Assembly (NCBI GenBank): GCA_003284565.1
Contig: QBXO01000018.1
Coordinates: forward strand, 1 to 36,656
Direction: 5' to 3'
Origin: SAR116 cluster bacterium AG-321-K23
GTDB lineage: Bacteria > Pseudomonadota > Alphaproteobacteria > Puniceispirillales > Marisalimonadaceae
DNA length: 36,656 bases
The position numbers and the translations under genes were made by a program. This document shows positions 8,432 through 12,618 of this stretch, piece after piece (position 1 is the stretch's first letter; each line of letters begins with the position of its first letter). The notes under the pieces were generated by a model, which had not been told where the DNA came from, did no database searches, and saw nothing but the letters and a program-made list of their open reading frames with translations.

Positions 8432-9715
8432 TTAAGCGCCTACAACAAGACGTCTCGGTTCTTCTATTATCTCTTTAATCCTAACTAGAAAGGATACTGC
8501 TTCTCGTCCGTCAATTATTCTATGATCATATGAAAGTGCCAGGTACATCATTGGCCTAATCTCGATGTTATCTCCTATTGCCACTGGTCTTTTTTGAATT
8601 TTGTGCATTCCTAAAATACCTGATTGGGGTGGATTTAAAATTGGTGAAGACATTAATGATCCGTAAACCCCACCATTTGAAATAGTAAAAGTACCACCAG
8701 CCATATCAGACATTGCTAAATTACCTTCTTTAGCTTTTTGACCAAACTCAGCAATTGTTGCTTCAGTCTCACCAAAGGACATTTTGTCTGCATTTTTTAG
8801 AACAGGAACAACCAAACCTTGAGATGTTCCTACAGCCACACCTATATTATAATAATTCTTATAAATAATATCATTACCATCTATTTCTGCATTAACGGCT
8901 GGGAATTGATTTAAAGCGTCAATTGAAGCTTTAACAAAAAAACTCATATATCCGAGTCTAACACCATTCTTCTTTTCAAAACTCTCTTGATAATTTTTTC
9001 GCATTTCTATTAGCGCTGACATGTCAACTTCATTATATGTTGTTAACATTGCCGCGGTGTTCTGGGCTTCTTTTAATCTCCTAGCAATAGCTTGACGAAG
9101 ACGAGACATCGGAATTCTCTCTTCAAGATTAGCATTATCTTCATTTCGAGTGTTTTTAATTACTTGGTCACTAGATTTGGTTTCAAGTTTGTTCGTAGTT
9201 GGTGTTTCTTTTTCTACATCTTTAACTTTAACTTCCTCAAAAACTTCTTCTTTTTTATCCTGCTTTGCTCCAGCAATTATTGTTCCTAACAAAGCTCCAA
9301 CTTCCACTGTATCTCCCTCTGAAACAACGGTGTTTTCTAGTATTCCTGAAGTAGAAGCAGGAACTTCTAATGTTACCTTATCTGTTTCTAATTCTACTAT
9401 CGGGTCATCTACTTCAACATAGTCACCTTGTTTTTTTATCCACTTAGATACAGTTGCCTCAACAACAGACTCCCCTAAAACTGGAACTAAGACATCCATA
9501 CAATTTTCCTTTCCTTTAAGAATATTATTATTGGGATTAGAAACTTTTTCATTTAATTTAGTATTATTTATTAAGTTTAAGTGAAGAAGGACATCCCCTT
9601 TTGTTACTCTACCATCAACACCTGTACCACTTATAGTATTAATATCTAATTTTTTTTCTTCAATTAACTTTGCTGCAGAAGGCATTGCAAGCTTTTGGGT
9701 ATTTTTATTGCTCAT
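8432..9715 (-). CDS. sucB: Dihydrolipoyllysine succinyltransferase (E2o) with permuted domain order
   Basis: The 427-residue core of 2-oxoglutarate dehydrogenase, which transfers succinyl groups from lipoyl-lysine to CoA. The order of domains is unusual. A peripheral subunit-binding domain (about 9-46, [13 protein letters not shown] then [15 protein letters not shown]) comes first. A linker (47-72) follows, then the lipoyl domain (73-149, lipoylated K113 in [10 protein letters not shown]), a charged linker (150-200) without any second binding domain, and the acyltransferase domain (201-427, H398 and D402 in DHRIIDG). Canonical E2o runs lipoyl, binding domain, catalytic. The ATG at 9715 is eight bases after the sucA stop and has only a weak Shine-Dalgarno sequence. 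M73 (ATG at 9499) has a strong one, so a 355-residue form lacking the binding domain is possible. The enzyme identity is certain; the use of two starts is inference. Confidence 0.95.
9497..9518 (-). promoter_or_regulatory. Internal ribosome binding site and ATG within sucB
   Basis: On the minus strand AAAGGAAAGG (about 9517-9508) is followed after eight bases by an in-frame ATG (9499-9497), codon 73 of sucB. This codon is the first residue of the lipoyl domain ([11 protein letters not shown]), exactly where a conventional E2o would begin. The site is stronger than that of the annotated start. Translation here would yield a lipoyl-catalytic protein without the E3-binding domain. Confidence 0.55.
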
Positions 9716-9723
9716 TAAATGAT

Positions 9724-12618
9724 TTACTCTGCTGCATGTCTGCTAGCTTTCTTTGCGGTAAATTGAAGAGCATCACTAACTAAATCATTTTGCTCTTTGT
9801 TGTGTCTAGAAAAAGATCCTGTTGCAGGAGAAGCAGCTTCTGATCTTCCAGCATAAATTGGCCTTGAGAATTTTGCTTTAATGTCAATTAGAACTTGTTC
9901 AATTCTTCTGTCTACAAAAAACCATGCACCCATATTTTTAGGCTCTTCTTGACACCAGACAACTTCAGCATTCGGTGATTTTGACAACATTTCTTTTAAT
10001 GTTTTCGAAGGAAAAGGATAAATTTGTTCTAGTCTAAGTATTCGAATATTATTAATTTTTCTTTTGTCTCTTTCTTCTAATAAATTATAAAAGACTTTAC
10101 CTGAACAAATTACTACTCTTTTTATTTCACTGTCTTTAAGCTCTATATTTGGGTCTCTAATTACTCTTCTAAAAGCAGTTTGCTCTGACATGTCTGACAA
10201 ACTAGATACACACATTTTATGTCTTAATAAACTCTTTGGGGTCATTATTATTAGAGGTTTTCGAAAATCTCGTTTTAGTTGCCTTCGCAACGCATGAAAA
10301 TAGTTTGCAGGTGTGCTACAATTTAATACCTGCATATTATCTTCACCACAGAGCTGCAAATATCTTTCTAATCTGGCTGATGAGTGTTCCGGTCCTTGAC
10401 CTTCGTATCCATGTGGTAAAAGCATAACCAAACCTGACATTCTCAACCATTTTGCTTCACCGCTTGAGATAAATTGGTCAACTATTACTTGAGCACCGTT
10501 GGCAAAATCCCCAAATTGTGCCTCCCACATGACTAAGGCAGTTGGTTCAGTTAAAGAAAAACCGTATTCAAATCCGAGGACGGAAGCTTCTGACAAAGGT
10601 GAATCAATTACTTCAAATGTTTCTTGTTTATCTTTTATGTTATTTAGTGGGGTGTATCTATTTTCAGAAATTTGATCTATAAAGACAGAGTGTCTTTGAG
10701 AAAAAGTTCCTCTACGACTATCCTGACCCGACAGTCTTACTGGATGACCCTCTAAAAGCAGTGAGCCAAACGCTAGATGTTCTGCAGTAGACCAGTCAAT
10801 TCCTTGTCCACTCTCAATAGCTTTTTTCCTAGCATCAATAACTCTTAATAATTTTTTATTGATATGAAAGCCTTCAGGAACAGTGGTAATTGCCTTTCCA
10901 ATTTCTTTTAGCATTTCTGTTGAAACAGAAGTCTCACCTCTTCTTGCGTCACCATGAGCAGTTCTAAGGTTTGACCATTGCCCTTCTAACCAGTCAGCCT
11001 TATTGGGTTTGTAACTTGATCCAGCTATAAATTCTTTTTCTAAAAATTTATTATGGTTATCGACTTCGTCTTTGGCATCCTTTTGACTTATTATTCCCTG
11101 ATTAATAAGCTTTTGAGCATAAATTTTACTTATACTATCGTGAGAGCCTATTGTTTTATACATTAATGGTTGAGTAAATGCTGGCTCATCACCCTCATTG
11201 TGTCCATAGCGTCTATAACTTATAATATCCAACACTACGTCACATGCAAATTTCTGCCTGAATTCAGTTGCAATTCTAGAAGCATGAACAACAGCTTCTG
11301 GATCATCTCCATTAATATGCATTATAGGAGCCATTACCATTTTTGCTACATCAGTACAATAAGGACTTGAGCGAGAATAATTAGGGCTAGTAGTGAATCC
11401 AATTTGATTATTTACAACTATATGTATTGTCCCTCCAGTCCTGTATCCTCTAAGTCCAGAAAAATCAAAAGTTTCAGCGACTATACCTTGACCTGCAAAT
11501 GCAGCATCACCGTGCAGAACAATTCCTAATACAGACAGTCTATCATTAGTATCATTATGTTGATTTTGTTTTGCTCTTACTCTACCTATTACAACTGGAG
11601 CAACAACTTCTAGATGTGAAGGGTTGGCTTGCAAAGACAGGTGAACTGTTTTTCCATCAAACTCTCTATCAGCTGAAGCACCCATATGATATTTAACGTC
11701 TCCAGAACCTCCAGCATCTTCTGGATTTGCCTGGTTACCTAAAAATTCAGAAATAATCGCTCGAAAAGGTTTGTTTAAAATATTGTATAAAAGGTTTAGT
11801 CTTCCTCTGTGAGCCATAGCTATGACAACTTCTTTCATTCCTAATTGACTGCCGCGTTTCAATATTTGCTCTATTGCTGGTACCACTGACTCGGAACCAT
11901 CTAGCCCAAACCTTTTAGTTCCTGCATATTTTTTATGAAGAAATTGTTCGAATGTTTCTGCACCAACTAAACGTTCGTAAATAGCCTTTTTACCTCTTTT
12001 AGTAAATTCAGTAGCATTACGAATAGACTCAATTCTTTCTTGTATCCATGCTTTTTGAGCTGGATCCTGAACATGCATAAATTCAATTCCTATGGATCCA
12101 CAATAGGTTTCTTTAACTATTTCCATAATTTGTCTAAGAGTGGCTGACTCCATACCAAGGACATAGTCTATAAATATAGGTCTATCCCAGTCATCATCAG
12201 TAAATCCATAGGTCTTAGGATCTAGTTCAGGATGAATATTCTGTTCTTGTAAATTGAGGGGATCTAAGTTAGCTAAAAGATGTCCATTTATCCTGTATGC
12301 TCTAATAAGCATAATGGCTCTAATAGAGTCAGTTGTTGCCGCTCTTAAATCTGTAGCAGATAAATTTCCTTTTCCTGCTATTCCTCGAGCAACTGCTTTT
12401 ACACTCTCAACAGTATCAACGGCTCCAATAACCTTAGTATTTTTTTTTGCCCAACTAGGTCCTTCATCTAATAATTTGTCGTCTGCGTTTGTTTTAAACC
12501 ACAAATCCCATTCCTTTGGAACTGAATTTGAGTTTTCTTTCCATTCTTTGTACAAATCATTTATGAAGGTAGCATTGGCACCAGAAAGAAAGCTTTGATC
12601 AGAGCTTTGGTCGTTCAT
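9724..12618 (-). CDS. sucA: 2-oxoglutarate dehydrogenase E1 component
   Basis: A 964-residue thiamine-diphosphate enzyme that decarboxylates 2-oxoglutarate and succinylates the lipoyl arm of SucB. The N-terminal segment [17 protein letters not shown] (10-26) is the typical E1o extension involved in E2 contact. Active-site and cofactor stretches are intact: AHRGRLN (269-275), KYHMGAS (309-315), [10 protein letters not shown] (330-339), [10 protein letters not shown] (369-378, the ThDP/Mg region) and [10 protein letters not shown] (403-412). The transketolase-like pyrimidine domain and C-terminal domain follow ([13 protein letters not shown], then [20 protein letters not shown]). Length and architecture are normal. 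It is not fused to E2, unlike the actinobacterial form. AAAGGA lies nine bases before the ATG at 12618. It sits 69 bases after sucD and eight bases before sucB. Confidence 0.98.

Follow-up and report, generated by a model that had tools for sequence, protein, structure and literature searches.

The window, the whole stretch of DNA analyzed here, consists of 36,656 nucleotides of contig QBXO01000018.1 from SAR116 cluster bacterium AG-321-K23; SAR116 is the order Puniceispirillales. The window carries sucA, sucB and lpd on the minus strand in the order sucA-sucB-lpd, which is the typical gene order. Upstream on the same strand, Pfam matches point to a pair of CoA-ligase genes of the sucD/sucC type, one gene of the malate dehydrogenase type and one for an AFG1-type ATPase, as well as four genes with succinate dehydrogenase-type domains. 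The AFG1-type ATPase gene (PF03969, 15837-16907 (-)) has the succinate dehydrogenase-type genes of this citric-acid-cycle cluster on one side and the malate dehydrogenase-type gene on the other. A small multidrug resistance-type transporter gene (PF00893, 6674-7003 (+)) is convergent with lpd, and the ends of the two genes overlap by 4 bases. The features of the locus are as follows, PSBD standing for the peripheral subunit-binding (E3-binding) domain and SD for a Shine-Dalgarno site.

9724..12618 (-): sucA (E1o), upstream; its stop codon is 8 nt before the long-form ATG
8432..9715 (-): long sucB/E2o open reading frame, 427 aa, PSBD - lipoyl - catalytic; ATG at 9715, stop at 8432
9587..9691 (-): PSBD, residues 9-43; Pfam PF02817 (45.5 bits), 2eq7_C and profile typing
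9500..9577 (-): PSBD-lipoyl linker, residues 47-72, fast-changing apart from the SD; residues 51-70 predicted low-confidence/disordered
9508..9513 (-): internal SD, GAAAGG, 8 nt ahead of the Met73 codon; duplex of -10.3 kcal/mol with CCUCCUUUCU, from the 16S tail in two genomes of the genus
8432..9499 (-): putative short E2o, Met73-427, 355 aa, lipoyl and catalytic domains without PSBD, stop included
9278..9493 (-): lipoyl domain, residues 75-146, with lipoyl-Lys K113 (codon 9377-9379); Pfam PF00364
9125..9268 (-): lipoyl-catalytic linker, residues 150-197, without PSBD; residues 153-192 predicted low-confidence/disordered
8444..9124 (-): succinyltransferase catalytic domain, residues 198-424, with the motif SYDHRIIDG; Pfam PF00198
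7000..8412 (-): lpd (E3, dihydrolipoyl dehydrogenase), downstream, the expected partner of the PSBD; TIGR01350, 553.1 bits

Domain order of the sucB open reading frame

The open reading frame at 8432..9715 matches two SucB equivalog models of NCBIfam above their cut-offs, PRK05704 with 559.4 bits (cut-off 449) and TIGR01347 with 510.7 bits (cut-off 378.65). Pfam places E3_binding at residues 9-43 (E-value = 8.4e-12, 45.5 bits against a cut-off of 23.7), Biotin_lipoyl at 75-146 (E-value = 1.2e-18) and 2-oxoacid_dh at 198-424 (E-value = 1.3e-83). The lipoyl-PSBD-catalytic layout is treated as general for E2 chains. Here the PSBD precedes the lipoyl domain and none is found in residues 147-197. 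A sequence-only reading of the same DNA had proposed this permutation; its residue numbers for the binding domain, the lipoyl domain with K113 and the acyltransferase are correct by Pfam, and the order that it named for a Pfam check, E3_binding, then Biotin_lipoyl, then 2-oxoacid_dh, was obtained. Its statement that the linker at 150-200 holds no second binding domain also stands, as Pfam and an unfiltered PSBD profile are both negative there. With that profile no second PSBD above 5 bits was found in any E2 protein scanned, and a second PSBD hidden in the linker is thereby rejected.

The lipoyl residue K113 lies within the motif ETDKV and is invariant in a 19-row alignment, as are S395, Y396, D397, H398, R399, D402 and G403; SYDHRxxDG is the catalytic motif. 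PF02817 has a single match in the window's own genome, which is 68.75% complete, such that other E2 genes may be absent from it. A PSBD consists of a pair of parallel helices with a loop between them. In an AlphaFold2 model of the full-length chain, which is weak overall (mean pLDDT only 56.3), the PSBD region displays helices at 12-20 and 39-52 with pLDDT of 68-76 per block (residues 11-50), and confidence is low in both linkers (51-70 and 153-192). A second model, of residues 1-150 alone, is weaker than the full-length one, with a pLDDT of 40.9. Foldseek with the full-length model gave E2 catalytic domains and full E2 models among the 50 matches listed and is uninformative for the PSBD alone. 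The open reading frame is confirmed as SucB/E2o with a genuine domain permutation.

The PSBD is of the E2o type. Its closest solved relative by sequence is the E2o PSBD 2eq7_C (E-value = 4.8e-6). Profiles were built from the PSBDs of 10 SAR116 E2o, 67 other E2o-type and 7 E2p sequences, and all 49 permuted PSBDs score higher with an E2o profile than with the E2p profile; the window PSBD gives 46.2 and 57.9 bits with the E2o profiles against 15.5 with E2p. The PSBD dN (0.04-0.28) is below dS (0.40-1.17) in 12 of 12 pairs, and by this measure the domain is under constraint as a protein. It is expected to bind Lpd (E3). In a sub-clade, L019 to L026, the PSBD loop carries Asn for Gly, such that the DGR of the window is replaced by DNR or NNR.

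Distribution and source of the permuted gene

The full-length permuted protein is found in 26 of 37 genomes of the window's genus, its own included, and in one other (G032) it is cut by a contig end. No full-length E2o was found in 10 of the 37 (G003, G013, G018-G021, G024, G027, G029 and G033). These genomes, among them G013 at 90% completeness, are probably incomplete, but real loss is possible.

A search of 136 genomes of the order shows matches that run from the PSBD into the lipoyl domain with no internal stop in 39 of 58 genomes of one family, many of which are incomplete. Four genera are represented: the window's genus (28 of 40) and three others (1 of 3, 1 of 2 and 9 of 13). Among the matches listed, which extend to E-values far weaker than any spanning match and in which the spanning ones rank top, none of the 78 genomes from other families of the order shows a spanning match, and the examples read from three sister families are canonical. 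Eighty named loci were also examined. Ten SAR116-titled records (L047-L056, with isolate names AG-... and some titled MAG) are permuted; of the other 70, the 66 readable by the ORF filter are all canonical, and 4 were not captured. L070, also SAR116, has the canonical layout. No spanning match beyond the window's own was found in 385 genomes of the class (E-value of 1e-7 or better) or in 398 genomes of the phylum (1e-9 or better), thresholds at which a diverged permuted sequence could escape.

Three matches from the wider searches were rejected as further permutations. G371 has the farthest-reaching stop-free match (residues 11-81), yet is canonical when read, and G211 and G120, whose matches reach far or look odd, are canonical when read as well. 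The match in G239 from the class search (residues 33-103) crosses five stops.

A midpoint-rooted E2o tree, built on the lipoyl and catalytic parts of 115 distinct proteins (353 columns), places the 39 permuted proteins and the contig-cut L141 in one clade with a support of 0.971. Closest to this clade, with a support of 0.875, come Pelagibacteraceae-titled sequences and L066, and only then the SAR116 loci L031 and L032. Ten loci adjoin the clade, L060, L063, L064, L066, L080, L089-L091, L095 and L099, nine of them Pelagibacteraceae-titled and one titled TMED25. The placement on the Pelagibacteraceae side may be an effect of AT-rich composition or of gene transfer.

Two alternatives concern the origin of the arrangement. 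The genome of the window is fragmented (88 contigs), which would favor an assembly or chimera artefact, and the sequence-only reading had looked to related genomes for a canonical order that would reveal one. The order is consistent in related genomes: family genomes of four genera carry the permuted order, rather than the canonical one only, and the ten named SAR116 records carry it as well. An artefact is thereby excluded and its likelihood is practically nil. In the other alternative, the source of the PSBD, or of the gene as a whole, is E2p or a horizontally transferred E2o, in place of a move within a SAR116 sucB. The best profile in 49 of 49 cases is that of other alphaproteobacterial E2o and not that of SAR116 E2o, although the former draws on a larger number of sequences, two SAR116 duplicates among them, and the tree neighbours noted above point the same way, with AT-rich composition as a possible cause. 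Against this, an E2p donor is rejected by the preference of all 49 PSBDs for an E2o profile, and 37 residues are too few for placing a donor. As all 49 PSBDs are of the E2o type, it is more probable that an E2o PSBD was reused than that one was captured from E2p, and we regard an outside source as quite improbable. The earlier suggestion that internal relocation is likelier than capture from another protein thus holds with respect to E2p, and on 37 residues a source in the same gene is a possibility.

A conserved start signal and probable second start at Met73

Met73 is at the beginning of the lipoyl domain, the point where canonical sucB genes start. The GAAAGG ahead of it is complementary to the 16S tail CACCTCCTTTCT found in two genomes of the genus (L127 and L128), although the mature 3′ end may differ. 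The duplex energy of -10.3 kcal/mol is below that of all 36 gene starts tested in the window, the best of which gives -9.1 kcal/mol; these are mechanical first starts, some perhaps wrong, from 46 open reading frames of which 10 overlapping ones were left out. It is also the lowest of the 261 in-frame internal ATGs, and with all frames counted, 3 of 761 internal ATGs reach -10.3 kcal/mol, Met73 included. The SD of the long-form start in the window gives -2.4 kcal/mol. In 50 loci that are permuted or cut by a contig end, the SD of Met73 ranges from -7.6 to -11.9 kcal/mol, and in 49 of 49 loci it is the strongest among the in-frame ATGs after the PSBD start. The SD of the long start ranges from -0.7 to -6.1 kcal/mol in the loci computed (L130 and L132-L141 were left out), where in four loci the codon used is a TTG directly before the ATG. 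Predicted RNA folding of 12 loci showed no clear difference between the two starts and gave no sign of greater accessibility at the internal one.

The spacer between sucA and sucB differs in the two layouts. In 12 canonical loci, which include two duplicate pairs, 23-78 nt separate the sucA stop from the sucB ATG, and the SD gives -4.9 to -12.3 kcal/mol. In the permuted loci shown, 224-243 nt separate the sucA stop from the old sucB start, with the PSBD and linker in frame and the SD in place. As the spacer is filled by the PSBD and linker and the SD is retained, the PSBD is located ahead of the SD of the old sucB start. The long start is 8 nt after the sucA stop in five of the six loci shown from the window's genus (10 nt in L142) and 11-13 nt after it in the other genera, a short distance that would suit coupled re-initiation. 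The SD of Met73 and the filling of the sucA-sucB spacer by the PSBD were overlooked in the sequence-only reading.

The bases of the internal SD show little change. AAGG followed by 8 nt and ATG is found in 34 of 34 distinct linkers. The Lys codon of the SD is AAG in 33 of these and AGG (Arg) in the remaining one, and the following codon specifies E, V, G or D, yet its first base is always G. Lys codons in 18 genes of the window are AAA 525 times and AAG 100 times. Outside this site, 12 Lys columns of the gene are conserved, two of which are fixed as AAA and none as AAG. Columns with an invariant residue show a mean of 4.4 third-base changes, with none in 13 of 172. For the linker of 35 sequences, 2 changes are inferred in the six SD bases against a mean of 21.7 per six-base window, the lowest of 76 windows. 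The Met73 column is preceded by an SD-like 4-mer in 49 of 49 loci, and at nine other conserved Met columns the counts out of 49 are 0, 9, 0, 1, 0, 0, 0, 0 and 1. In L142 (G066) the sequence before the lipoyl Met reads AAA AAA AGG GAT GGA ATA ATG, with Arg AGG replacing Lys AAG; AAGG, the 8 nt and ATG are kept, as if the bases rather than the residue were selected.

The linker dN is at least 0.9 of dS in nine of the 12 pairs and some 0.6 of it in the other three, in a comparison made ungapped from the lipoyl Met that is rough between genera and may inflate dN there. By this measure the linker is not wholly free of constraint. When synonymous codons were shuffled within single sequences, a fraction of 0.0085 to 0.29 of the shuffles matched or exceeded the observed SD strength, a weak result because the residues at the site already favor an SD. 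The counts for linkers, Lys columns, dN/dS and Met columns took in only loci with an open frame and with Met where the lipoyl domain begins, and these two traits are not independent evidence there. The PSBD-typing scan, which has no Met requirement, also gives 49 permuted loci and therefore no locus was lost through the requirement. The case for an internal start rests on conservation of the SD over a small number of deep lineages, about six, and on this comparison the SD is conserved beyond the constraint on the protein.

Two other readings of the SD have to be weighed. The sequence-only reading described an otherwise normal complex with the binding domain at the far tip of the arm. In a plain permutation of this sort, only the long chain is made, each E2o carries the PSBD at its arm tip, and the SD is a scar left from the former sucB start or a pause site for folding of the PSBD. 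Canonical relatives have their SD at the same place, such that a relic is conceivable, SD sites within Caulobacter genes accompany pausing according to the accessible part of PMC4117421, and the synonymous shuffle is weak for single sequences. But a relic in a fast-changing linker would be expected to decay, and the near absence of change in the SD bases amid that linker counts against one, while a pause site would have no need of the exact 8-nt spacing to the ATG seen in 34 of 34 linkers. With a start and SD at Met73 that are under base-level constraint throughout the family, a normal complex with a PSBD on the tip of each chain is not supported, and we consider this reading rather unlikely. 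In the opposite reading, only the short chain is made in quantity, and the PSBD segment ahead of it is of minor importance or a vestige. The SD of the long start is indeed weak and the internal one strong. However, the PSBD dN is well below dS in all pairs, no stop is present in any of the 39 spanning matches, this PSBD is the sole one found in the permuted E2o, and the long start stays near the sucA stop, as would suit coupled re-initiation. Such a reading is very improbable.

A proposed mixed E2o core and its known counterparts

The old sucB start and its SD are conserved base by base, and therefore this gene probably gives rise to a second chain that lacks the PSBD. Comparison of the layouts would suggest the following course, in which the order of the steps is conjectural. 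In an ancestor of one family of the SAR116 order, an E2o-type PSBD-coding stretch would have arrived between sucA and sucB, ahead of the SD and start that sucB already had, with the frame then opening into sucB, and the PSBD between the lipoyl and catalytic domains would have gone. Translation from ATG 9715, with its weak SD 8 nt past the sucA stop, would give a PSBD-lipoyl-catalytic chain, and translation from Met73, with its strong conserved SD, would give a lipoyl-catalytic chain without PSBD. Both chains retain the assembly and catalytic domain and therefore should co-assemble in one core, where only the long chain would dock Lpd. Only a fraction of the core would then bear E3-docking arms, and its size would depend on how frequent coupled re-initiation after sucA is relative to independent initiation.

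We think it likely that a PSBD came to stand between sucA and the SD of sucB and that one gene yields a long PSBD-bearing and a short PSBD-less E2o in a mixed core. With somewhat less assurance, we lean to the view that the mixed 2-oxoglutarate dehydrogenase core made from one gene is also the reason for the permutation, which would exist so that translation sets the number of E3 docking arms; the PSBD would be in front because in no other position could a second start take it in or leave it out.

The permutation itself means that a marine bacterial family departs from the general E2 layout in a core enzyme of the citric-acid cycle. If the second start is used, domain order would be tied to gene expression, with one gene yielding chains with and without the docking domain, and a simple test would be offered of how many E3 docking sites are needed per 2-oxoglutarate dehydrogenase core and of whether it matters where on the arm the PSBD is. 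Among the papers listed in a literature search that covered few subscription papers, none dealt with an E2 that has its PSBD first or with an E2 gene that has a second start.

The canonical bacterial E2o (SucB; TIGR01347 / PRK05704) shares with the window's E2o the catalytic domain, the lipoyl domain with K113, a single PSBD and the sucA-sucB-lpd gene order. It differs in that its PSBD lies between the lipoyl and catalytic domains, whereas in the window's E2o the PSBD comes first and a conserved in-frame second start follows. The order lipoyl-PSBD-catalytic is given as the E2 layout in the accessible parts of PMC9974300 and PMC10156792. Internal starts are reported for Caulobacter, also an alphaproteobacterium, with 75 in-frame isoforms, and SD sites inside genes can pause ribosomes (PMC4117421, accessible part). 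As in those cases, two isoforms would come from one gene here. Unlike the Caulobacter cases as described in that part, the start here would split off an entire domain for partner docking, and four genera have kept its signal.

According to the accessible part of PMC10156792, E3BP recruits E3 to the pyruvate dehydrogenase complex at a ratio of one PSBD to each E3 dimer. In the mammalian and fungal complex a subset of chains docks E3, such that recruitment is decoupled from core size, a likeness that would extend to the locus described here; from the conserved second start, the long chain could be a sub-stoichiometric E3 recruiter similar to E3BP. E3BP, as presented in the same part, is the product of a separate gene (PMC10156792), whereas here the same gene would serve by way of a second start, in the 2-oxoglutarate complex and with the catalytic motif kept. 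No separate E2 paralogue of the E3BP / protein X kind is involved, as the long chain is the sucB open reading frame itself. Eukaryotic E2o lacks a PSBD, and MRPS36/KGD4 is proposed to recruit E3 (PMC9974300, accessible part). The putative short chain would have the same layout as that E2o, with E3 docking carried by something else in both. MRPS36/KGD4 is, by that part of PMC9974300, a separate adaptor without prokaryotic orthologues, whereas the docking element here would be a PSBD that the E2o gene itself supplies on its longer product. A mixed core of this kind would be the counterpart, from a single gene, of both E3BP and the E2o without PSBD in eukaryotes, and, if true, a bacterial route to what eukaryotes achieved with separate genes (E3BP, MRPS36).
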